A stretch of DNA of 64,000 nt from Acinetobacter tianfuensis (lineage in GTDB: Bacteria; Pseudomonadota; Gammaproteobacteria; Pseudomonadales; Moraxellaceae): positions 1 through 64,000 of the forward strand of contig NZ_RAXV01000011.1 of NCBI RefSeq assembly GCF_003611465.1, read 5' to 3'. The notes beneath the pieces were generated by a model. It did no database searches, was not told the origin of the DNA, and saw only the letters and a program-made list of their open reading frames with translations. Below, piece after piece: positions 42,071-60,561 of this stretch. How positions within the stretch are numbered: the stretch's first letter is position 1; each line of letters opens with the position of its first letter. Both the position numbers and the translations under genes were made by a program.

Positions 42071-42760
42071 CCCTCTCCTGCTCTACTTATTGTTTTTTTG
42101 GATATCTTTTGAGGCCATATTCAGCTTTTATATTATTAAAAAAAGTACAATTGTGCAGATTTTTATATCAAACTCACCGCAATAAAAAGATAAATACACC
42201 CCGAAATATGCAGCAATAGTGAATTCACGCACTAATTATTTATTTTATTAGAATAAATTAAATGGCACTGCTAAAAGCAGCACCATTCCTATACAGGTGT
42301 ACTTATTTATAGCTTGAATATATTAATCCAAAATGTGACAAAATGATTCAAAAAATGAGAATAAACATGCCTATTCAACAAAAAAACTTTTAGTTCATGA
42401 TTTTTTAATCATGTAAAAACCAAATATTTATTGAAGCTTGAATTTATAACAAGTCTATTTTTTATCCACAGCTATCAATAACTTAAAAACAAAAAACAAA
42501 AAACAAAAAACAAAAAACAAATGAATCACTTTTGCAAATACGATTCGAATATCATTTTTCAGCTGATAAAAAAAATGCTCATTTTGGAAATAAGCACCCA
42601 TTTTCCAGAAAAAAACAATTACATATTACTTGCAATCAATAACAAATAGATACAATTCTGCAAACCATTTCACACTATTGCCTAAAGTGTGTTTACTGAT
42701 TACACTGAATTTATTCAATAAAAATACATGACGTAAATAAATTACCGTGCCGGGGGACGT
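42071..42760. other. Long AT-rich spacer before the pilin cluster
   Basis: A 690-bp spacer with strongly AT-rich composition and no gene. It contains a heptamer tandem repeat (listed) and must hold the promoter of the pilin cluster. CCGGGGGACGT just before 42761 is a GC-rich, strong SD. The composition suggests silenced or recently acquired DNA. Confidence 0.6.
42485..42521. repeat. Tandem heptamer repeat (AAAAAAC), about five copies
   Basis: Four exact AAAAAAC units (42491-42518) are flanked by partial units. It lies about 240 bp upstream of the pilin cluster. Such runs can change copy number during replication. Confidence 0.9.
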
Positions 42761-49892: not shown

Positions 49893-50210
49893 TTAGCTGG
49901 AAGATAATTTCATCAAAATTAAACCTGAAATAATCAGCACAGCTGCGAGCATACGCATGGCTGAAGCAGGTTCACCTAAAAAGAAAATTCCAACAGCAAA
50001 TGAACCAATTGCGCCAATCCCAGTCCAAACCGTATAGGCCGTTCCGAGCGGCAACGTTTTCATTGCATAAGATAAAAGCGCAAAACTTGCAATCATAAAC
50101 ACAATGGTCAAAATACTTGGCGTAAGTTTAGAGAAGCCATCTGATATTTTCATAAAATATGCCCAGATAACTTCCAAAATACCTGCAACAATTAACAATA
50201 CCCAAGCCAT
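49893..50210 (-). CDS. gdx: SMR-family exporter, Gdx/SugE type (second of a tandem pair)
   Basis: Gdx proteins are small inner-membrane guanidinium/H+ antiporters. The 105-residue, four-helix protein has the essential Glu13 in IVAGILEVIWAYFMKISDGF, the G-F-S-x-L-T-P-S motif after helix 1, and LPLGTAYTVWTGIGAIGSFA, all typical of Gdx/SugE rather than EmrE. It shares about three quarters of its residues with the next gene upstream. Two similar SMR proteins side by side may work separately as homodimers or as a pair. A weak hairpin lies between the two genes. Confidence 0.85.
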   Translation of the reverse strand: MAWVLLIVAGILEVIWAYFMKISDGFSKLTPSILTIVFMIASFALLSYAMKTLPLGTAYTVWTGIGAIGSFAVGIFFLGEPASAMRMLAAVLIISGLILMKLSSS

Positions 50211-50264
50211 TTCAAATACCTTTAAAACACATCAATACAAAAACTTAAAAATAGAAATTACACA

Positions 50265-50297
50265 GAAAAAGAGCCATATTATTCAACACAGCTCTTT
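50265..50297 (-). terminator. Weak hairpin between the two Gdx genes
   Basis: AAAGAGC and GCTCTTT pair around a 16-base loop, followed by TTCTG on the minus strand. It could reduce expression of the second exporter. Confidence 0.45.
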
Positions 50298-50314
50298 GCT
50301 TTAATTTAAGTGTA

Positions 50315-50632
50315 TTAACTGGATGAAAGCTTCATCAATACCAGACCAGAAATAATCAAAACCGCAGCAAGCATGCGCATTGCTGTTGCTGGTTCACCTA
50401 AAATAAAAATACCGACAAGAAAGGAGCCAATCGCGCCAATGCCTGTCCAAATAGTATAGGCCGTCCCCAGAGGTAATGATTTCATGGCATATGCCAATAA
50501 ACCAAAACTGAGAATCATAAAAAATATGGTGATAATGCTCGGTGTAAATTTACTAAAACCTTCGGACAGCTTCATGCTGTATGCCCAAACGATTTCAAAA
50601 ATACCTGCAAAAATAAGAACAATCCAAGCCAT
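50315..50632 (-). CDS. gdx: SMR-family exporter, Gdx/SugE type (first of a tandem pair)
   Basis: The 105-residue four-helix protein has the essential Glu13 in IFAGIFEIVWAYSMKLSEGF, then FTPSIITIFFMILSFGLLAY and LPLGTAYTIWTGIGAIGSFL. The Gly-Phe-Ser-Lys stretch and the Trp-Thr-Gly-Ile-Gly helix mark it as Gdx (guanidinium export), not a quaternary-ammonium pump. It is the first gene behind a sigma-70 promoter and a two-hairpin leader that fits the guanidine-II riboswitch, which supports guanidine as its substrate. SD GGAG lies eight bases before the ATG. Confidence 0.88.
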   Translation of the reverse strand: MAWIVLIFAGIFEIVWAYSMKLSEGFSKFTPSIITIFFMILSFGLLAYAMKSLPLGTAYTIWTGIGAIGSFLVGIFILGEPATAMRMLAAVLIISGLVLMKLSSS

Positions 50633-50776: not shown

Positions 50777-50853
50777 GTGACATTTACATGATTTGACCAA
50801 AAATACACCTAAAAATTTTATGGTTTTCATCTAAAAATAGAGGAATATTGAAT

Positions 50854-51339
50854 ATGCACCATCCTTTTTGGGGAGACATAACGGAAATTTTTGGTGAATA
50901 TATGACTGAAATTGTCTTTCAATCCAATTTTTTTCAGCACGGAAATGCATTGTATCTTGGTGATGTATACGATGAAGAAGGTGAAGAAATTGAAAATGCG
51001 CCATCTATTGAGCAACTCAATGAGTTTGCGCAAAGCTATCAAGCATTTTTGCAGCACTTAGAATCTTGCCTCGAACAAATTCAACATCGAGCTTTTGAAC
51101 GCTACATTCAGCTCTATGCTCATTATTATGAAAACCCTGAAAAATCAGGCGAAGCTCCATTAATAATCACCGCCATTGAACAGCATAATTTTTATATTCG
51201 GAATTTACTCCATATCCGCATCAGTGACCGGCAAACTGTCCGTTTAGCCATTCGATATGACTTAGATACAGAACATGGTATGGAGTTCAAATTTATCGGC
51301 AATCAACTGGTCAAAGTTGCAGGCATTGCTGAAACTTAA
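50854..51339 (+). CDS. Hypothetical protein, possibly DUF6985-like (161 aa)
   Basis: The product is an acidic soluble protein with a beta-rich start (FWGDITEIFGEYMTEIVFQS), a helical middle (LNEFAQSYQAFLQHLESCLE) and a beta-rich end. This arrangement reminds me of DUF6985-type proteins, but I cannot confirm it. I use the ATG at 50854 with AGGA nine bases upstream; a TTG two codons earlier is less likely. It is divergent from the Gdx pair, with about 220 bp between starts, and convergent with copB. No role can be given. Confidence 0.6.
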   Translation: MHHPFWGDITEIFGEYMTEIVFQSNFFQHGNALYLGDVYDEEGEEIENAPSIEQLNEFAQSYQAFLQHLESCLEQIQHRAFERYIQLYAHYYENPEKSGEAPLIITAIEQHNFYIRNLLHIRISDRQTVRLAIRYDLDTEHGMEFKFIGNQLVKVAGIAET

Positions 51340-51350
51340 GCTATAGAAGC

Positions 51351-51383
51351 AAAAAGGCCACTTCAATTGAAATGACCTTTTTT
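51351..51383. terminator. Terminator between the hypothetical gene and copB
   Basis: AAAAAGG...CCTTTTTT enclose the palindrome TTCAATTGAA in an imperfect stem. It is usable in both directions. Confidence 0.6.
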
Positions 51384-51412
51384 AAATTATCTAAAATTGA
51401 ATTCACTGTCCC

Positions 51413-52357
51413 TTAGAACTTAAAGCGAATACCAGCACCATATACACCGCCATTTTCAGAATCTGATTTCACTTGCCACGGTGTTTCATCCTTGCCTTTC
51501 GAATATGCATAAGCAATGCTGATATAAGGCATGACTTTTTTACTGATTTCATAACGGGTTTCAAGCCCTGCTGCCGCACTGCTCAAACCTGTTTTTTTCG
51601 CATATTTAGAATCATCACTAAAAATCACATCCAGCTCTAAGTAGGGCTGCATAATCAGTTTCTGTGTAATCAGCAAATCACGTTCCGTTTCTAAGCTAAA
51701 CGCTGCGTAGCTGTCTTTACCTGCATACAAATACGCATCGGTTTCAAAGAAGTACGGCGCCATACCATGCAAACCAATCACTGCATCGACATGTTCTTCG
51801 GTGTCTTTACGCTGATTGCCTAATTCAATTTTTTCACGGCGGTAACGTGCACCAATTTGCGCATCCCAAAAGTCAGAAATCATACGGCTATATAAAATTT
51901 TGGCATCATAATGCGCATCATGCGATTCTTCTTTATCTGCATGAACTTTAATAAAAATTTTATTTTCATCTGTGCCAATACGGGTTTCAAACTCGGACTT
52001 TAAAGCACCCACGCCATCTTCATTGACCAACCATTGATTATCGACAGCAGTGACCGCATAAATTTGCGCACCATGTTCTTTACGATGATGATTTTGATGA
52101 GAATCAGGATAACCACTTCCATGCTGTGCTTTTTCAACTGTTGCTGCTGACGCAGATAGCGCATGATTGGAATGATTTTGCACAGAGGCTTGAGGCGAAT
52201 TTAACACAACATTTGGAGTATGCTGTGAGTGATCCATCGGCTCAGCTGTCGTCGATTTCACACTATGATCTTCACCATTATGCGCAAAACTTACCGCACT
52301 GATCATTAATAATGATACCGCTAAAACACTTTTAGAAAAAAGATTAATGGTGTGCAT
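51413..52357 (-). CDS. copB: Copper resistance protein B (outer membrane)
   Basis: CopB is an outer-membrane protein that binds or sequesters copper and works with CopA. The 314-residue product has a signal peptide (VLAVSLLMISAVSFA, then HNGEDHSVKS), a His/Met/Asn-rich linker at about 24-100 with metal-binding HSQHTPN, HSNHAL and HQNHHRKEHG, and a beta-barrel C-terminus from about 100 (ENKIFIKVHADKEESHDAHY, ending YGAGIRFKF with a terminal Phe). It starts 14 bases inside the end of the small upstream gene, with SD GGAG formed from that gene's own codons. Confidence 0.88.
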   Translation of the reverse strand: MHTINLFSKSVLAVSLLMISAVSFAHNGEDHSVKSTTAEPMDHSQHTPNVVLNSPQASVQNHSNHALSASAATVEKAQHGSGYPDSHQNHHRKEHGAQIYAVTAVDNQWLVNEDGVGALKSEFETRIGTDENKIFIKVHADKEESHDAHYDAKILYSRMISDFWDAQIGARYRREKIELGNQRKDTEEHVDAVIGLHGMAPYFFETDAYLYAGKDSYAAFSLETERDLLITQKLIMQPYLELDVIFSDDSKYAKKTGLSSAAAGLETRYEISKKVMPYISIAYAYSKGKDETPWQVKSDSENGGVYGAGIRFKF

Positions 52358-52589
52358 GCTGATCTCCTTTCTGCGCCTTTTTATCCTGCGGCTTCTCTAT
52401 TGTTTTTTGTTGATGCATGTGCTGATGATCTGGACGCTCAGAATGGTTCATTTGAGAGTGATTCACCGGCATAGCGGTCGTAGTCGATTTCACACTATGG
52501 TTTCCCCCGTTATGCGCAAGACTCAAGGTACTCACGCCCAAAACTGCAACTGCAAGAAAAGCTTTTAATACAATATTAGTGATGTGCAT
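52344..52589 (-). CDS. Small His/Met-rich periplasmic protein, paralogous to the CopB N-terminus
   Basis: The 81-residue protein has a signal peptide (IVLKAFLAVAVLGVSTLSLA), then NGGNHSVKSTTTAMPVNHSQ and further His/Met motifs, ending GDQHAHH. Its first 45 residues match the start of CopB closely, but the beta-barrel is missing. It should be a small copper-binding periplasmic protein. The ATG at 52589 has AGGAG six bases upstream; longer in-frame starts lie inside copA. It overlaps copA by 14 bases and copB by 14 bases. Confidence 0.75.
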   Translation of the reverse strand: MHITNIVLKAFLAVAVLGVSTLSLAHNGGNHSVKSTTTAMPVNHSQMNHSERPDHQHMHQQKTIEKPQDKKAQKGDQHAHH

Positions 52590-54318
52590 GTTCAGCTCCT
52601 TTTTGTTCAGCTGCTTGATTGGTTTGAGCTGGGTTTGCGCCTTGAATTGGTGTTGTTGAAACCTGTCCATCGCTGACATTTGCCACAATTAACTTGTTCA
52701 TCATCCCTGCGCTCATGTGATAAAGCAGGTGACAATGAATTGCCCATTCACCTAATTCATCTGCGGTCAGTAAAGCGGTCACAGTTTTACCTGGAGGCAC
52801 AATCAGCGTATGTTTATTTGGCATATCTACCGATTCTTGACCATTCTCCAATTGCATAAACATGCCATGCAAATGCATCGGGTGCGCCATCATGCTGTCA
52901 TTGATAAATTTGATACGGATACGCTCGCCATATTTCACTTTCAGCGGTTCAGCATCACTGAATTTTTTACCGTTAATGGTCCAAATATAGCGTTCCATAG
53001 TACCGCCCAAACGCACCACCAATTCACTGCTGGCTTCACGAATATCTTTTTGCGGTTTTAAAGATTTTAAGTCGCTATACTGCAAAGCTTTATTGCCCGC
53101 AGGTGTCGACGCATTTGCCCAGCCATAAACCACTTGATCATTTTTTTGCGGTTTTACTGCGCTATGCTGTGAATGATCCATGCCTTTCATATCACCATGA
53201 TTCATTTTCGAGTGATCCATGCCCTGCATATCACCGCCGCCATGCCCCATATCTTCCATGGTTAACAGTGAGCGTGGACGAGGTGCAGGCATATGAATGC
53301 CATGTGTCACTGGGTTCAATTCATTGTGCAGTGTGCCAATTGCATAACCTGAACGGTCAATTGACTCCGCTTCAATCTGATAATGTCCGCCTTTCGGTTC
53401 GACAATCACATCATAAGTTTCAGCAGTTCCAATACGGAATTCATCCACAGCCACCGGTTTTACAGGCTGGCCATCAGCGCTGACCACGGTCATTTTTAAG
53501 TTAGGAATACTGACATCATAAAAAGACATGGCTGAAGCATTCACAAAGCGCAGGCGAATTTTTTCATTCGGTTTAAACATGCCTGTCCAATTTTGTTCAG
53601 GTGTTTTACCGTTAATGAGGAAGGTATAGCCTGTCACATCAGACATATCGGTTTTCAGCATGCGCATCTGATTCCACATCTTACGGTCAGACCATGTGGC
53701 TTTTACGCCATCACGTTTAACTTGCTTCCAGACATCGCTGAGTGTTTCACGCTGATCTTGATAATATTCCGCAGAAATTTTCAGGTCTTTTTGAATTTGA
53801 TCACTGGTTTTTTCATGAAAATCTGACAGCATCACTACATAGTCACGCTCGGTTTTTTCATGCGCAGCAAGCGGCTTTTTCCCTTTAGGATAAATCACAA
53901 AAGAGCCATATAAACCGTCTTGTTCTTGCCCCTTAGAATGGGCGTGATACCAATACGTACCGCTTTGGCGGATTTTAAATTTGTAGACAAATTCTGCATT
54001 CGGCTGAATGCCGTTAAAACCATTAAAGCCTGGTACGCCATCCATAATGCCCGGCAGCAGCAGTCCGTGCCAATGAATAGAAGAATCTTGGTTTTTTAAA
54101 TTATTTTTCACGCGAATGATGGCTTCATCACCCTCTTCAAACTCAAGCAAAGGCGCAGGAAATTGACCATTTACGGTAATGCGCTTTACAGGTTTTCCAG
54201 TTGGGCTGACCACTGCTTCATCAATAACAAGCTGATATTCACGCACTTCGGCAAAAACCAAAGGTGACGACGCAAAACAAATACCTGCCAACAGGTACGA
54301 ACGAATTTTATGAGACAT
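52576..54318 (-). CDS. copA: Copper-resistance multicopper oxidase CopA
   Basis: CopA oxidises Cu(I) in the periplasm, making it less toxic. The 580-residue product has the copper sites HWHG near 82, WYHAHS near 123, HPMHLHG near 477 and HCHLLYHMSAGMM near 523. A Met/His-rich stretch near 360-390 (MQGMDHSKMNHGDMKGMDHS) probably binds extra Cu(I). The signal peptide (MSHKIRSYLLAGICFASSPL) has no twin-arginine, though multicopper oxidases usually use the Tat pathway; an in-frame stop lies just upstream, so the start is fixed. It ends KGAEHAHH and overlaps the next gene by 14 bases. Confidence 0.92.
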   Translation of the reverse strand: MSHKIRSYLLAGICFASSPLVFAEVREYQLVIDEAVVSPTGKPVKRITVNGQFPAPLLEFEEGDEAIIRVKNNLKNQDSSIHWHGLLLPGIMDGVPGFNGFNGIQPNAEFVYKFKIRQSGTYWYHAHSKGQEQDGLYGSFVIYPKGKKPLAAHEKTERDYVVMLSDFHEKTSDQIQKDLKISAEYYQDQRETLSDVWKQVKRDGVKATWSDRKMWNQMRMLKTDMSDVTGYTFLINGKTPEQNWTGMFKPNEKIRLRFVNASAMSFYDVSIPNLKMTVVSADGQPVKPVAVDEFRIGTAETYDVIVEPKGGHYQIEAESIDRSGYAIGTLHNELNPVTHGIHMPAPRPRSLLTMEDMGHGGGDMQGMDHSKMNHGDMKGMDHSQHSAVKPQKNDQVVYGWANASTPAGNKALQYSDLKSLKPQKDIREASSELVVRLGGTMERYIWTINGKKFSDAEPLKVKYGERIRIKFINDSMMAHPMHLHGMFMQLENGQESVDMPNKHTLIVPPGKTVTALLTADELGEWAIHCHLLYHMSAGMMNKLIVANVSDGQVSTTPIQGANPAQTNQAAEQKGAEHAHH

Positions 54319-54363
54319 AACTTAACCTTAATTTTTGAAAATCAATAAATTTTTAAAAATCGG

Positions 54364-54840
54364 TTAAGCTTTCGGAGGGCGCAGAATTTCCTGCCAATAA
54401 CCTTTTAGATATTGTTCTGTATAGCGGGATTGGATCGTTTCTACAGTGACATCAGACTTGAATGCATCGAGCTGCTGCGGCTGATAAACATCTAAAGAAA
54501 ATACACTGATTTGACAATGCCATAGAGCGCAATCACTGCATTGACTTGGCATTGCATTGGCCATAGACATATCGCAATGCGGCAGCGTATTTTGTTCCGC
54601 AATCTGCTTCGCATCCAGCATGGCTGGCATATCATGACAGTTGCTGTCTGTATTTGCTTGCGCATTTTGCATAGCATGATGAACAGCAGAACTGCTTTCT
54701 TGGGCTGCTGCTTGCTGCATCATTATGCTGTGTATCGGTTTTTGCACCGCAGAGGCAACACTGCTCCAGCTCATGACAAATGCCATAAGCAAAGCAAACG
54801 CTGCATGCTGCCGCAATCTTTTCAACACAATATGATCCAT
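54364..54840 (-). CDS. Cys/His/Met-rich secreted protein at the head of the cop operon
   Basis: I do not recognise a family. The 158-residue product has an N-terminal signal-type helix (HAAFALLMAFVMSWSSVASA) and then a metal-binding-like section: SNCHDMPAML, LPHCDMSMANAMPSQC and SDCALWHCQ. The cluster of Cys and His with adjacent Met suggests copper binding or sensing in the periplasm. It ends ILRPPKA. It is the first gene of the operon, 45 bp before copA. Small proteins of this kind lead cop operons in Acinetobacter. Confidence 0.65.
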   Translation of the reverse strand: MDHIVLKRLRQHAAFALLMAFVMSWSSVASAVQKPIHSIMMQQAAAQESSSAVHHAMQNAQANTDSNCHDMPAMLDAKQIAEQNTLPHCDMSMANAMPSQCSDCALWHCQISVFSLDVYQPQQLDAFKSDVTVETIQSRYTEQYLKGYWQEILRPPKA

Positions 54841-55125
54841 CTATGGTCACAGCCCAAATCTCTTTTTAGCTTAAGTCATAATTTTTAAGGGAGCAAGCAC
54901 TTAAATCTGAATTGAACAAAATGCAGGTTATGCCTCCCTTTTCTGTTTTCCGTCTAATAAAAAACATTGAATGGCTCAGTTTGCCATAACTCTTTTTTAA
55001 ATTTATTTTAATACTTCAGCAACGGACACACCAAACTGGTTTACTGGTTATAATTATATTTCACTCAGCACAAAAATTAATCATGACAAAATAAAACACT
55101 GTTATTTTCATCACTTAACTCAACT

Positions 55126-55152
55126 AAAAAAGGACTCTTTTGAGTCCTTTTT
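55126..55152 (-). terminator. Terminator after rpe
   Basis: AAAAGGACTC and GAGTCCTTTT form a perfect 10-bp stem with loop TTTT. For rpe it lies beyond the DnaA-box-like array, so the array would be in the 3' part of the message. Confidence 0.85.
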
Positions 55153-55211
55153 ATACATTTTTTGTCTAATTTAAAAACAATTACAGTGCAAGTGTTTGTA
55201 AAATGTCCGAT

Positions 55212-55283
55212 TTATCCACCTAGTTATCTACACAGATATCCACGCCGTTATACACAAAGTTATCCACAGATCATAGTGGATAA
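55212..55283. repeat. Array of DnaA-box-like sequences phased at exactly 12 bp
   Basis: Five direct 12-bp units start at 55212, 55224, 55236, 55248 and 55260: TTATCCACCTAG, TTATCTACACAG, ATATCCACGCCG, TTATACACAAAG, TTATCCACAGAT. The fifth has the perfect DnaA box TTATCCACA; the fourth (TTATACACA) fits TTWTNCACA; the others differ by one or two bases. A sixth, inverted copy (AGTGGATAA) is at 55275-55283. It lies 12 bp past the rpe stop. Confidence 0.85.
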
Positions 55284-55294
55284 ATCAGATTTGA

Positions 55295-55981
55295 CTATAG
55301 CTGCACCGAGCGAACTTGTGCAAGCTCTGCACGCATTTCATCAATCACAGCTTTATAATCCGGTTTACCAAAAATTGCGGAACCAGCCACAAACATATCT
55401 GCACCAGCTTCAGCAATTTCACGGATATTGGCAGGGCCAACACCGCCATCCACTTCTAAACGAATGTCACGGCCTGAGGCATCAATAATCTTGCGCGCTT
55501 CGCGTAATTTTTCTAAAGTCATTGGAATAAACTTCTGACCGCCAAAACCTGGGTTCACACTCATTAAAAGAATTTGGTCTACTTTGTCCAGCACATAATC
55601 TAAGTAATGCAATGGCGTTGCAGGATTAAAAACTAAGCCTGCTTTCGCGCCGCCAGATTTAATCAGCTGTAAAGTACGGTCAATATGATCAGAAGCTTCT
55701 GGATGGAACGTAATAATATCCGCGCCTGCTTCCAAAAAATCACCAACCATGCGGTCGACTGGCGAAACCATTAGATGCACATCAATCGGCGCCTGAATAC
55801 CATACTTTTTCAATGCCTTACATACCCCTGCACCAAATGTCAAATTGGGCACATAGTGGTTATCCATGACATCAAAATGGACAACATCTGCACCTGCTTC
55901 AAGTACATTTTCAACTTCTTCGCCTAAACGGGCAAAGTCTGCAGACAAAATAGAAGGTGCAATTAAATATGGCTTGGACAT
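55295..55981 (-). CDS. rpe: Ribulose-phosphate 3-epimerase
   Basis: Rpe interconverts ribulose-5-phosphate and xylulose-5-phosphate in the pentose phosphate pathway. The 228-residue TIM barrel starts [17 protein letters not shown] and has [17 protein letters not shown] (metal His/Asp) at about 34-50, [10 protein letters not shown] near 68, [21 protein letters not shown] near 139 and [12 protein letters not shown] near 175. Length is normal. It is a single gene with a 50-bp leader before an open region toward the DUF2218 gene. Confidence 0.95.
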
Positions 55982-56101
55982 GGGAGAACCTGGCTAGCGA
56001 TGAGTTTGATAACCGCAGTATAGCAAAAGCGGCCTTTGCCTGTCTTAACCGAAGATCATTGCATGTATAAAACACTGTGTTGCAAACACACGATTAAATT
56101 A

Positions 56102-56120
56102 AAAATGATTCTCAATTACA
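56102..56120 (+). promoter_or_regulatory. Fur-box-like site before the DUF2218 gene
   Basis: AAAATGATTCTCAATTACA shares the AATGATTCTCA core of many gammaproteobacterial Fur sites. It lies about 35-50 bp before the start of a gene type often linked to iron uptake. Confidence 0.45.
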
Positions 56121-56153
56121 ATAACCCATCATATCTACAGCGCTGAGAAAAAT

Positions 56154-56441
56154 ATGCATCAATATTCTGAAGCTAAAATTGCATCTGCACAGCCTTCCCG
56201 TATTGCTAAACGCCTCCTGAATCATTGGAAACACAAATTTGAAACGGCTGAAGATGAACAGCAATTCAGTATTTATATGCCTGCTGCAACCGTGCTGCTG
56301 CGCCCTGCCAGCGATGAACTGCATGTACGCATTCAGCTCCAAGATGAAACTGCGGATTTAGGCCATTTAGAAAATGTAGTTTTAGACCATCTGATTCGTA
56401 TGGGACAGGAAGAATTACAGGCAAATTGGCAGCGAATTTAA
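56154..56441 (+). CDS. DUF2218-family protein
   Basis: The 95-residue soluble protein has the DUF2218 layout: a helix with RIAKRLLNHWKHKFE at about 16-30, strands (QQFSIYMPAATVLLRPASDE) and a C-terminal LENVVLDHLIRMGQEELQ. DUF2218 genes often lie near siderophore uptake or utilisation genes; their biochemical role is not known to me. The Fur-like site upstream agrees with iron control. It is a single gene with a strong terminator. The ATG has no clear SD; RBS-like AGAAAAAT lies just upstream. Confidence 0.78.
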   Translation: MHQYSEAKIASAQPSRIAKRLLNHWKHKFETAEDEQQFSIYMPAATVLLRPASDELHVRIQLQDETADLGHLENVVLDHLIRMGQEELQANWQRI

Positions 56442-56466
56442 ACCTTAGCCTGCTCATTTCTCAGAA

Positions 56467-56492
56467 AAAAGCCAGACGGCAGTCTGGCTTTT
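56467..56492. terminator. Bidirectional terminator between the DUF2218 gene and fghA
   Basis: AAAAGCCAGAC and GTCTGGCTTTT form a perfect 11-bp stem around GGCA. Confidence 0.92.
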
Positions 56493-56524
56493 CATCTCGC
56501 TGAGCTTTTTAAGCTAACCGCAGC

Positions 56525-57361
56525 TTAACTCTGCAGCTGCACAGCATGGAACTGCAAATGATCATCCATAAAGCTTTGAATAAAATAATAGCCGTGATCA
56601 TAAGCTTCATGCTCACGCAGTGTTAATTTCTGCCCTGCTTTTATACATGCTTCACGGAATAAAGCTGGATTCAATTGGCTATAGAATTGATCACTTAAGC
56701 CCTGGTCAATCAAAATATCTTGAAACAGTGCGCCTTTGCTTTGGATCAAAGCCGCTGCATCATGTGCTTGCCAAACGGTCTGATCTGCACCTAAATAGTG
56801 GGTAAATGCTTTTTCACCCCAAGGGCATTGGCTCGGCGCGCATATAGGCGCAAATGCTGAAACAGATTTAAATTTTTCAGGATATTTCAACGCTAAAGTC
56901 AATGCGCCATGACCGCCCATGCTGTGGCCAAAAATACCTACTTGTTCAGAGCAGATTGGAAATTGCGCCAGTACCAATGCATAAAGTTCATCTGCAACAA
57001 AGCTTTCCATTTGAAAATGTTCAGCCCATGGCTCTTGCACCGCATTGATATAAAAACCGGCGCCTTGACCAATATCCCAATGATCACCTTTTGCAACTTC
57101 ATCACCGCGAGGCGAAGTATCCGGTGTAATTAAAATAAAGCCCAGCTGCGCTGCCATACGCTGTGCATGCGCCTTAATAGCAAATGTTTCTTCTGTGCAG
57201 GTTAAGCCCGCCAAATAAAATAAGGCTGGGCAATCTTGGCCCTTTAATGCCTGTTCAGGCAAAAAAATACCAAAACGTGATGATGTTTTTAAGCTGACTG
57301 AGTCAAAACTATAAATCCGCTGTTCACCCTGAAAACATTGATTGCTTTGCACCAATTGCAT
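56525..57361 (-). CDS. fghA: S-formylglutathione hydrolase
   Basis: FghA hydrolyses S-formylglutathione to formate and glutathione, the second step of glutathione-dependent formaldehyde removal. The 278-residue esterase has FYLAGLTCTEETFAIKAHAQ near 48-67, the nucleophile Ser in IFGHSMGGHGALTLAL near 146, Asp in ILIDQGLSDQFYSQL near 225, and His in YDHGYYFIQSFMDDHLQFHA near 259. Length is typical. The partner dehydrogenase (adhC/frmA) is not next to it. It is a single gene. Confidence 0.92.
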   Translation of the reverse strand: MQLVQSNQCFQGEQRIYSFDSVSLKTSSRFGIFLPEQALKGQDCPALFYLAGLTCTEETFAIKAHAQRMAAQLGFILITPDTSPRGDEVAKGDHWDIGQGAGFYINAVQEPWAEHFQMESFVADELYALVLAQFPICSEQVGIFGHSMGGHGALTLALKYPEKFKSVSAFAPICAPSQCPWGEKAFTHYLGADQTVWQAHDAAALIQSKGALFQDILIDQGLSDQFYSQLNPALFREACIKAGQKLTLREHEAYDHGYYFIQSFMDDHLQFHAVQLQS

Positions 57362-57393
57362 AACACGTCACCCTGCCCTAGATCTAAATAATT

Positions 57394-58800
57394 TTAATGT
57401 TTCAATTCTAATTCAGCTTGAGGTGCATCTGGTGTGCCAGATGCAGGCGGAAATAAACGCTGCTCCAGCTGCGGCAGCATAAATTGCATATTTTTCCCAA
57501 TAGACCATTGCGGCTCAGAAGGTTCAAAGCCTTGCGCCGCTTCCCATTTCGCTACGGTTTCCTGCGCTTGCTTAAAGGCTGCTGAAATTGAATTCTGCTC
57601 ACGCATTGCTTGATCAAAGAAGGCGCGGCCAAAATAGGTATAATCCGCTTCATTTGAACAGCCAAAAGACTGGCGGTCTGCCGCAGACGCAGTAATAATC
57701 AATGTGTTTTCATCCTGCAGCGCAGGTAAAAAACTGCCTGAATAACATGCAGAAATCACAATCACGCGCCAGCGGATACCAGAGGCATCAAGGGTTTGAC
57801 GTAACCATTTCGGATCAACCTGCGCTAAATCCAGCGGCGCATTTTCCATTTCAAATACGTTTGGCAAACCATGTGATGTCATATACAAAAACAGCACATC
57901 GCTTTCACGGTTCATCTGCTGTCCGATACGGCGCAGCGCCAGCTCCATACTGGTTTTAGATGCAATTGGAACTTCAGTACGTGTTGCAGGATGATTAATC
58001 AATTCAATGGAACGGCCAAACGTGCCAAAGCGGGTATCGAACTGTTCTTTTATACGCTCTATTTCATATTTGAACACATCTTGATAACTCGCGCCTGCTA
58101 CACCTAAGAAATACCAATGCGACTGCGCAAACTCACCGTACTGCACGGCGTCTAAAGATTTATTCAGCAAACGGCTTTGCGCATAGAAAGCATCTTCTGC
58201 AAAAGCGGGCGGCAGCGCCTCTACTTTCCAAATCGGCTGATCTTTGACAGACATTTGCCAAACCACCAAAGTGAATAAGGTCGCCAGCATAATAAGCGCA
58301 CGTTCCCACCATGGCCATTTCAATTCACGGGAGAAAACCCAAACCACAGCCAAGCTTTGCCATACAAACAGCACAATAAATAAGGTTGGGATATAGTCAT
58401 ATAACAGGTATGGCAAATAGTCCAAATCGCCCAAGTACTGAATCAGACATTGAAACAGCATGATGTGCGTATCCAGCACCAGCCACAGCAAGGCTGGCAC
58501 CAGCATCAAACGCGGGTTATTAATGCGCTGGGATAAAAAAATACCGACAATTAAGGCAATAAAAGGCCAAAGTGCATAGCTGATCAGGCCCTGCGGGTTA
58601 AAATCCCCCATGCGGCCTGTACTGAGCCAGCTGAATAAGCTATTTGCGCAGCCGCCCAAAACGCCCCAAAACACCAATTGCATGATCGATGGGCGAACAA
58701 TCTGCAGCGAGCGCCTCGACCCGAGAAACAGCCACATTCCCGCAGTTTGGTTGCTTTTAAAATCATGCCAAAAATTGATGGAAGGTTTAAAATCGATCAT
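57394..58800 (-). CDS. Membrane-anchored C13-family (legumain/caspase-like) peptidase
   Basis: The 468-residue protein has five hydrophobic segments at about 38-60, 71-92, 97-118, 130-155 and 165-182, and then a soluble domain. That domain is of the C13/caspase type: His310 in FLYMTSHGLPNVFE and Cys352 in VIVISACYSGSFLPAL form the expected dyad, and SRLLNKSLDAVQ and WYFLGVAGASYQDVF occur in their usual places. It should face the periplasm or cytosol from the inner membrane. Bacterial C13 peptidases are widespread but their targets are unknown. A Pro/Ala-rich tail follows (LFPPASGTPDAPQAELELKH). It is a single gene. Confidence 0.82.
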   Translation of the reverse strand: MIDFKPSINFWHDFKSNQTAGMWLFLGSRRSLQIVRPSIMQLVFWGVLGGCANSLFSWLSTGRMGDFNPQGLISYALWPFIALIVGIFLSQRINNPRLMLVPALLWLVLDTHIMLFQCLIQYLGDLDYLPYLLYDYIPTLFIVLFVWQSLAVVWVFSRELKWPWWERALIMLATLFTLVVWQMSVKDQPIWKVEALPPAFAEDAFYAQSRLLNKSLDAVQYGEFAQSHWYFLGVAGASYQDVFKYEIERIKEQFDTRFGTFGRSIELINHPATRTEVPIASKTSMELALRRIGQQMNRESDVLFLYMTSHGLPNVFEMENAPLDLAQVDPKWLRQTLDASGIRWRVIVISACYSGSFLPALQDENTLIITASAADRQSFGCSNEADYTYFGRAFFDQAMREQNSISAAFKQAQETVAKWEAAQGFEPSEPQWSIGKNMQFMLPQLEQRLFPPASGTPDAPQAELELKH

Positions 58801-58915
58801 AGGATTCAGAGGGCAGCTGTAGCTCGCTTATGCGCAGAGTAAGTTTATGCTTGATGTATTTTTTATCAATGCTATTTTCCAACTATATCTCAAATCTTTG
58901 CTATTTTTGCAGCAA

Positions 58916-59743
58916 TTATGAAATTTCAGACTTAAGTTCTAGCTGGAAATAAGCATCGAAGCGGCAGGCATCACCTTGCCATTGATGATTTGGCGCAGCA
59001 TCTGCTAAAAATACTGCTAAACGGGGACGTTTCACCACCACCCGTTTCGCAATTTTTTGAGCCAACGCTAATAAATTATCGCCCAGATCCATCTCGCCAT
59101 CTTCAGGCAACAGCAAATGCAGCAGCTGCATTTGCTTTTTCACCTGCGCCTGTTTTTTTACCGCCTGCTGATTTTGATCACGCTGCGGAAACATCGGGTC
59201 TAAATACACCACATCATAAAACCGCTGCGCATCAGCCTGTGTTTGCAGATAGTCTGCGGAATCTGAAAAAACCAGCTGTATACGGCTGGCAGCGCCATGC
59301 AGAAAGGCATCATTCAGCGCGCGCTGCCGGGTATCTTCCAGTAAAGTAAAAAGTATCGGGTGACGTTCAACCAAGGTGACGTGTGCGCCCAAATGCGCCA
59401 TCAGCAAACTGTCATGGCCTAGGCCAGCTGTTGCATCAATCAAATTCGGCTTCTCACCCAAGTTGCAGGCACGTGCAATCATTTCTGATTTTAAGGATGC
59501 CCGCTTTAAACGTCCTGCTTCAGCTTTCCAATCCGGCTGCATTTTCATGCCGTTAGCGCACAGCCATAAACCATCTTCATCTGCACATAAAGCAAGCTCA
59601 GGATGATGTCGGAAAAAGCGCGCATTCAGCTTTTCCGCCACTTCAATTTTTACTGCAACCCCACGTGAAGAAAGCACAGCAGAGAACTGCTGTGCTTTCA
59701 TTTCACATTCGGCTTCAGTGTATAAGCGGATATCGCTTACCAT
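58916..59743 (-). CDS. rsmJ: 16S rRNA (guanine1516-N2)-methyltransferase
   Basis: RsmJ methylates G1516 of 16S rRNA with SAM. The 275-residue product has the SAM motif [20 protein letters not shown] near 115-134, [17 protein letters not shown], and the catalytic-type [13 protein letters not shown] near 196-208. The ATG at 59743 (MVSDIRLYT) is chosen; the 20 codons before it would lie in uppP and add a stretch unlike the family. It overlaps the uppP stop by seven bases. Confidence 0.9.
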
Positions 59744-60561
59744 AGTTTCCAGCCTGTAAATGCAAATAATAAAATCAGTAATCCAGATGCAATGCGGTAC
59801 CATGCAAAGACCATAAAGTCACGCTTTGCCACATAGGCCACCAGCACACGAATTAAAATCAGTGCTGAAATAAAAGATACGATGATGCCTGTGGCCAATA
59901 CCGTCCAGTCTTCCGCAGTCTGAAATACATCATAACTTTGGTACAAATCTAAAAGGCCTGCGCCAATAATCACTGGAATACCTAAAAAGAAAGAAAACTC
60001 AGTGGCCGCTTTACGAGACACTCCTAAGAACATCGCGCCAATAATCGTTGCGCCTGAACGTGATGTACCCGGAATCAAAGACAGCACCTGAATTAAACCA
60101 ATCCAAACCGCATCTTTTATTGTTAAGTCTTCTACTTCTTTCGCACGGACTTTTGGCGGGTTTTTCTCAATCCAAATAATAATTAAGCCGCCAATAATGA
60201 GGCCCATTGCAATCGCAATATTATTAAACAAAAGCTCTTTTACTGTCTGGCCAAAGCTCAGGCCGATCAATACAATTGGAATAGAAGCTAAGATTAAGCC
60301 AAAACCCAGGCGGCGGCCCTTTTCTTCACCTGTAACCATGCCTGTCGCTGCGCCCCAAAGACGCGACCAATATTCATAAATGACCGCAGCAATAGCGCCC
60401 ATCTGAATAGCAATGACAAATACATCACTCTTTTCTTTGGTCCAGAAATTCATTAATTCAGATGCAAGAATTAAATGGCCTGTACTGGAAATGGGTAAAA
60501 ATTCTGTAATACCTTCAACAATACCCATGATTGCCGCTTTCAGCAGCAGTAAAAGATCCAT
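59737..60561 (-). CDS. uppP: Undecaprenyl-diphosphatase UppP (BacA)
   Basis: UppP removes a phosphate from undecaprenyl diphosphate to recycle the lipid carrier of peptidoglycan, and gives bacitracin tolerance. The 274-residue inner-membrane protein has the signatures [20 protein letters not shown] at about 14-33 (catalytic Glu region) and [19 protein letters not shown] at about 162-180 (Pro-Gly-x-Ser-Arg-Ser-Gly). It has about eight membrane helices. It follows tsaB by 12 bp and overlaps rsmJ by seven. Confidence 0.95.

Follow-up and report, generated by a model that had tools for sequence, protein, structure and literature searches.

What is a row of DnaA-box-like sequences doing behind rpe? 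The window that we analysed is a stretch of 64,000 nucleotides from Acinetobacter tianfuensis (contig NZ_RAXV01000011.1, positions 1 to 64,000). Just 3′ of the rpe gene, it carries five direct units at a pitch of exactly 12 bp (55212-55268). DnaA control away from oriC is poorly known outside a few model bacteria. If such arrays bind DnaA, those described here would give two defined regulatory sites to a genus that includes an important hospital pathogen. We propose, with a probability of roughly 0.5, that the rpe array is a conserved non-coding DnaA-assembly site, not an origin, and that it would work like datA of Escherichia coli.

A phased array lies between rpe and a probable terminator

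The array had been picked out by a sequence-only reading, and its five direct starts, their exact 12-bp spacing and the inverted sixth unit that follows were all borne out (Table 1). Scored against TTATCCACA, the five units reach 40 of 45, the best five-unit score at pitch 12 in the window. Other pitches between 9 and 24 yield five-unit scores of 29 at most. Chance origin is ruled out, because the pitch-12 maximum in 400 Markov-1 random windows was also 29, with none above. By contrast, the window holds no excess of single TTATNCACA-like 9-mers with at most one mismatch (70, against 79.7 expected). It is the phased array alone that is unusual there, not DnaA-box-like 9-mers generally. Elsewhere in the window, a perfect tandem repeat of AAAAACA (5.3 copies, 42485-42521) stands just after a single TTATCCACA at 42462.

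Table 1. Coordinates of the array, its surroundings and the second array of the same genome (window positions unless a contig is named).
Feature	Position	Strand	Remark
Box 1, TTATCCACC	55212..55220	+	Full consensus in 0 of 65 aligned arrays
Box 2, TTATCTACA	55224..55232	+	Full consensus in 0 of 65 aligned arrays
Box 3, ATATCCACG, weakest	55236..55244	+	Full consensus in 0 of 65 aligned arrays
Box 4, TTATACACA	55248..55256	+	Full consensus in 1 of 65 aligned arrays
Box 5, TTATCCACA, presumed high-affinity anchor	55260..55268	+	Identical in 64 of 65 arrays
Inverted sixth box, TTATCCACT	55275..55283	-	15 bp from the start of box 5
Place of IHF-consensus-like site, degenerate in the window (AAAACAATTACAG, 4 of 9)	55174..55186	-	
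Perfect hairpin, 11-bp arms, 4-nt loop, A and T runs	55127..55152		
rpe, ribulose-phosphate 3-epimerase	55295..55981	-	PF00834; array adjoins its 3′ end
Locus of the recB-recD array of A. tianfuensis, three units, TTTTCCACA-cgg-TTATCCTCA-aac-TTATCCACA	G000:C25:22509-23109		

The array is placed between the end of rpe and a perfect hairpin, which is probably the bidirectional terminator of rpe. By eye, a similar hairpin-like stretch is present in most aligned rpe loci. Copper resistance genes (CopB, multicopper oxidase) occupy one side of the locus, and DUF2218, esterase, C13 peptidase, methyltransferase and BacA genes the other. A known RNA element at the array was considered and rejected, the two Rfam matches both scoring far below their gathering thresholds. 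Also in the window, two similar adjacent genes of 105 aa on the minus strand (49893-50632) resemble, by eye, small multidrug-resistance transporters.

All four spacers of the window array are 3 bp long and end in G. The accessible text of a ChIP-seq study of E. coli describes DnaA as binding mainly to paired boxes with 2 or 3 bp between them, a pitch of 11-12 bp; at purH, base-pair insertion strongly reduced DnaA binding and base-pair deletion did not (PMC11317965). In its arrangement, the window array fits this double-DnaA-box class of same-direction boxes 2 or 3 bp apart. It has the 3-bp spacer in common with the E. coli double boxes, but these come in pairs, whereas the window has five boxes in a row. 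According to the same portion of that study, the 3-bp spacers of E. coli end in G at polA, purH, nrdA, datA, oriC and DARS1, but not at DARS2, mioC and dnaA (PMC11317965).

The array keeps its place across Acinetobacter

The sequence-only reading had asked whether other Acinetobacter genomes carry the array beside rpe. Most of those examined do. We surveyed 79 genomes, 77 of which gave an rpe match, and found an array downstream of rpe in 65 of the 77: 64 with five units and one (G022) with three. The five-unit arrays score 39 or 40 of 45 at a pitch of exactly 12 bp and the three-unit array scores 33, whereas at pitches of 9, 10, 11, 13, 14 and 15 bp the rpe loci reach 29 at best. The remaining 12 genomes score 21-27 and count as lacking the array; one of them, G058, is masked at this place and unreadable. 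Because these 12 show no array there, and because two genomes (G001 and G089) lack both this array and the second one described below, the rpe array is dispensable in some lineages.

A set of named Acinetobacter loci, overlapping with the survey genomes, gave the same picture (10 of 12). The array is present in A. stercoris, A. pecorum, A. lwoffii (twice), A. ihumii, A. portensis, A. silvestris, A. nosocomialis and strains ANC 4169 and NIPH 2100; it is absent at rpe in Ca. A. avistercoris and A. pollinis. It also adjoins rpe in an A. baumannii record. Outside Acinetobacter, none of 68 rpe loci passed the identical scan. Four survey genomes (G011, G016, G064 and G078) carry a second, diverged rpe paralogue of 65-67% identity.

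The surroundings of the array are less constant than the array itself. Its distance from the end of the rpe match ranges from 28 to 304 bp, with the pitch unchanged. The gene beyond the hairpin, judged by eye, differs by species: it is copper-type in most named loci, SMR-like in A. pecorum and A. lwoffii, and HAD-like in A. nosocomialis. Since both the distance and the next gene vary while the pitch is fixed, the array seems to be an independent unit.

Regular direct repeats are a hallmark of iterons, and the sequence-only reading had suggested the remains of an iteron-type origin. That suggestion fared badly. The array is kept in place in 65 of 77 species across the genus, and a profile scan of ten nearby proteins (50848 to 60561) gave no match to a replication-initiator (Rep) family. 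In a plasmid collection, the only records matched by the array region itself were five from A. baumannii, 0.66-4.09 Mb in size and in three cases as long as a chromosome; twelve other records matched other or partial stretches, with E values of 0.03 or more. A related idea is that the units are sites for another protein with similar sequence preference, but they fit the DnaA consensus. We regard this whole reading, plasmid relic or other protein, as highly improbable.

Three of the A. baumannii records in the plasmid collection (NZ_CP077849.1, NZ_CP104448.1 and NZ_CP064203.1) are 3.66-4.09 Mb long; they may represent chromosomes, or fusions, that were catalogued as plasmids. At least NZ_CP077849.1 carries the rpe locus.

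One anchor box and four graded boxes

Conservation is concentrated in the boxes. Near-identical sequences were down-weighted (effective n about 30). On that basis the boxes hold 1.65 bits per column and the spacers 0.92; upstream, the value is 0.94 over the 60 bp that precede box 1 and 0.63 beyond them, and downstream of the array it is 0.27. The summed score is 39 or 40 of 45 in 64 of the 65 arrays. Each position has its own character. Box 5 is the near-invariant consensus box, box 4 is TTATAAACA, TTATCCATA or TTACCCACA, box 2 is mostly TTATC[AT]ACA, and boxes 1 and 3 follow [TA]TATCCA[TC]N (Table 1). Spacers 1 to 4 end in G in 46, 62, 43 and 56 of the 65 arrays, respectively. The earlier assignment of the units as DnaA-type boxes is supported, at the level of predicted sites.

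The arrangement resembles the low-affinity arrays of E. coli oriC, which in the accessible part of their description consist of one strong box and weaker boxes in one direction, with 2-bp spacers (PMC4451416). Strong anchor, graded weak boxes and common direction are shared; the Acinetobacter spacers are 3 bp rather than 2 bp, and the rpe array does not lie beside dnaA.

Two further elements were seen upstream of box 1. A conserved TTGTTTAT-like element lies about 10-19 bp before it and in some species is part of an inverted TTATAAACA. Many species have a weak box at 11-bp pitch directly before box 1.

The inverted sixth box is not a feature of the genus. It is present (at least 7 of 9) at offset 15 in 13 of the 65 arrays and in none at offsets 13, 14 or 16, and we rejected it as genus-wide because 52 arrays lack it. 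This bears on a DARS-like function, in which boxes 4 and 5 together with the inverted box would form a core for ADP release, regenerating ATP-DnaA. The window copy does have the layout of DARS1 and DARS2, with an inverted box behind a direct pair at 12-bp pitch, and its elements follow one another as in the E. coli DARS1 core: a direct box, 3 bp, TTATCCACA, a gap and then the inverted TTATCCACT. However, the gap holds one extra base pair (6 bp against 5 bp in DARS1), so that the inverted box sits at offset 15 rather than the 14 of both DARS1 and DARS2. Moreover, the direct boxes number five against two in DARS, and what is conserved across the genus is the co-directional array. Given the offset and the 13 of 65 arrays, we consider a DARS-like site quite unlikely.

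A second array overlaps the start of recD

The rpe array has a counterpart. At the recB-recD junction we found a second 12-bp array, with at least three units in 75 of 77 genomes: 33 genomes have three units, 1 has four, 16 have five, 20 have six and 5 have seven. The threshold was a three-unit score of 21 of 27, which none of 462 shuffles reached (highest 19). The two genomes without it are G001 and G089. The recD gene was recognized by TIGR01447 over cut-off, and recB by TIGR00609 as best match, below cut-off. Across the surveyed genomes, no simple rule trades loss of the rpe array against a long recD array.

This second array overlaps the beginning of recD, and on the coding strand its boxes read VDK, EDN and VEN. 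Each 12-bp unit is four codons, and the number of units can therefore vary without a frameshift. Codons alone do not explain the pitch, because the rpe array, which lies outside rpe, has the same one.

Does the array act as a gene switch? DnaA might work as a road-block or terminator on rpe or the next gene, and might control recD expression at recD. The overlap with the start of recD would suit such a role, and the accessible text of PMC11317965 describes gene regulation by E. coli DnaA at comparable box pairs. At rpe, however, the array sits behind the gene at a widely varying distance, and the next gene beyond the hairpin is not constant among the named species. A DnaA-controlled gene switch is, in our view, unlikely.

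Both arrays lie away from oriC

The rpe array is not a usual oriC, as the sequence-only reading had said. In the A. tianfuensis genome, dnaA is on a different contig (G000:C36), and its product has the C-terminal DNA-binding domain. Among 23 near-complete genomes, the rpe array lies 0.176-0.229 of the chromosome from dnaA (0.200 ± 0.013), and on both grounds we rejected a usual origin. In the same genomes recD lies at 0.092-0.145 (0.107 ± 0.013). Either array can be on either side of oriC, depending on the genome; the two are on mutually opposite sides in 10 of 23.

The map position relative to oriC had been put forward as a check on function. It is indeed conserved, but proportionally no more tightly than that of two control genes, recA (0.422 ± 0.028) and alaS (0.349 ± 0.020). 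We therefore reject any special conservation of map position; the constancy of the array position is probably ordinary. At about 11% (recD) and 20% (rpe) of the chromosome from dnaA, the two arrays are nevertheless replicated some while later than oriC, which is also true of datA.

The genuine origin shares the pitch. At A. tianfuensis oriC a 12-bp triple (TTACCAACA, TTAACCACA, TTATCCACA) stands about 461 to 429 bp before dnaA, together with consensus boxes and several further boxes in both directions. High-affinity DnaA sites at oriC of A. calcoaceticus are mentioned in the accessible text of PMC4451416, and oriC predictions by Ori-Finder in that of PMC4245941 and PMC3691203. The likeness to the oriC triple, and the combination of phased DnaA boxes with an IHF-like site, both of which belong to the equipment of an oriC, would also suit a DnaA-using site of chromosome organisation or an origin that is secondary or serves in times of stress. 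Yet the neighbourhood proteins examined include no initiator. In the genomes whose matches could be placed, each chromosome has a single dif site and a single dnaA, which argues for one main origin, beside which a weak one might exist. Taken together, we think a secondary origin or organisation site very unlikely.

The A. tianfuensis genome has 25 matches to the dif-like XerC/XerD pattern, whereas many congeners have one to four. The surplus matches are probably plasmid-type dif modules.

An IHF-like motif stands at a fixed offset

The motif YAANNNNTTGATW is the reverse form of the IHF consensus. The rpe arrays match it at offset -38 from box 1 with a mean of 7.0 of 9, and 51 of 65 score at least 7; the next-best place is the forward form at -41, with a mean of 6.0. 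At the recD arrays, the reverse form appears 3 bp after the last box with a mean of 7.4, and 69 of 75 score at least 7; the next-best place has a mean of 5.7. The recD array of A. tianfuensis scores 8. When the letters of the consensus were shuffled 2000 times, the observed mean was reached 21 times at rpe, 6 times at recD and never at both. In single-genome shuffles the IHF-like site has no significance (about 28% of shuffles reach at least 8 of 9 within 70 bp), and the signal is significant only as a fixed offset across species. These places are thus putative IHF sites.

By eye, a weak direct box-like stretch, TTATACATT, is seen at 55151-55159 in the window, at the hairpin end. Seen from the array, it lies beyond the IHF-like place, and a true box there would put the IHF-like site between boxes, as in datA.

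The array resembles datA more than DARS

The essential boxes of datA all point in one direction, with an IHF site between boxes, and datA is copied some time after oriC; head-to-tail ATP-DnaA contacts are described for datA and for oriC (all from the accessible part of PMC5742627). The Acinetobacter row shares with datA its non-coding position outside oriC (dnaA being on another contig), the single direction of its predicted DnaA boxes (all five) and their copying after oriC; in most species an IHF-like motif accompanies the row. Even the pitch recurs, since datA contains a 12-bp pair, TTGTAAACA-gag-TTATCCACA. There are differences too. The boxes of datA are spread around the IHF site, whereas the five Acinetobacter boxes form one unbroken row beside rpe, with the IHF-like site on its flank and degenerate in the window copy. 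The loci also differ: E. coli datA lies near tRNA-Gly genes and queG.

The sequence-only reading had left the choice between a datA-type and a DARS-type site open. The datA-like form of that proposal fits better, because the boxes are co-directional and, in most species, an IHF-like site stands at fixed offset; the DARS-like form fits less well, for the reasons given above.

Clusters of DnaA boxes outside oriC are known from other bacteria. In Bacillus subtilis and Streptomyces they repress untimely initiation and are considered analogous to datA, according to the accessible text of PMC5742627; we liken them to the rpe array by description only, as box clusters outside oriC. The present arrangement at rpe and recB-recD appears to be without a published description. 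Among the titles and opening lines of abstracts listed from the open literature on Acinetobacter DnaA boxes, replication initiation in A. baylyi, DARS, recD and DnaA ChIP-seq, and in the accessible text of PMC4585315, we found no such arrays and no Acinetobacter DnaA ChIP data; most subscription papers lie outside this search. The accessible part of PMC12371093 does not mention Acinetobacter.

A model for DnaA assembly at the arrays

Phasing, box conservation, position, the second array and, in most species, the fixed-offset IHF-like motif can all be read from the DNA. Binding of DnaA and of IHF, the order in which the boxes fill, ATP dependence and an effect on initiation are what we infer. 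In the datA-like reading, DnaA would bind the consensus box 5 first, and the four graded weaker boxes, each 12 bp from the next (3-bp spacer), would then be filled head to tail. The single direction of the boxes would favour the head-to-tail ATP-DnaA contacts known from datA and oriC. In most species examined, oligomer formation may be aided by the IHF-like bend site, whose end is 25 bp ahead of box 1. If DnaA does bind, a consensus anchor followed by four graded boxes at fixed pitch would also be a clean natural substrate on which to study the growth of DnaA oligomers on double-stranded DNA.

The array would thereby capture DnaA, preferentially ATP-DnaA, and lower its free level by titration. 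Head-to-tail ATP hydrolysis possibly contributes to the lowering. Copied after oriC, about 20% of the chromosome away, the array would keep oriC from early refiring, and the recB-recD array, about 11% away, would act likewise. All 31 genomes searched have an Hda match, 24 of them over cut-off. These genomes therefore probably also have the known Hda-clamp route for inactivating DnaA, in which case the arrays would add to it.

A bolder version of the datA-like reading can be offered only tentatively, and we hold it to be doubtful. Acinetobacter might control DnaA at two nodes, the paired, IHF-assisted head-to-tail arrays at recB-recD and rpe, in place of datA and DARS. The recD array, lying in the first codons, would couple the DnaA level to RecBCD, and its box number could change in frame by whole 12-bp units.

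Similar triples occur in other Gammaproteobacteria

A strict three-unit pattern occurs in at least 10 of 369 genomes across the class, a lower bound that says little about absence, since the pattern misses the window array itself. Some other Gammaproteobacteria have near-perfect TTATCCACA triples at 12-bp pitch. One lies beside dnaA and dnaN (L370), another before dnaN (L366), and a third (L364) near an rnpA-like protein that scores below cut-off; other triples are near unrelated genes. The triples beside dnaA and dnaN mildly support the view that such arrays are DnaA sites.
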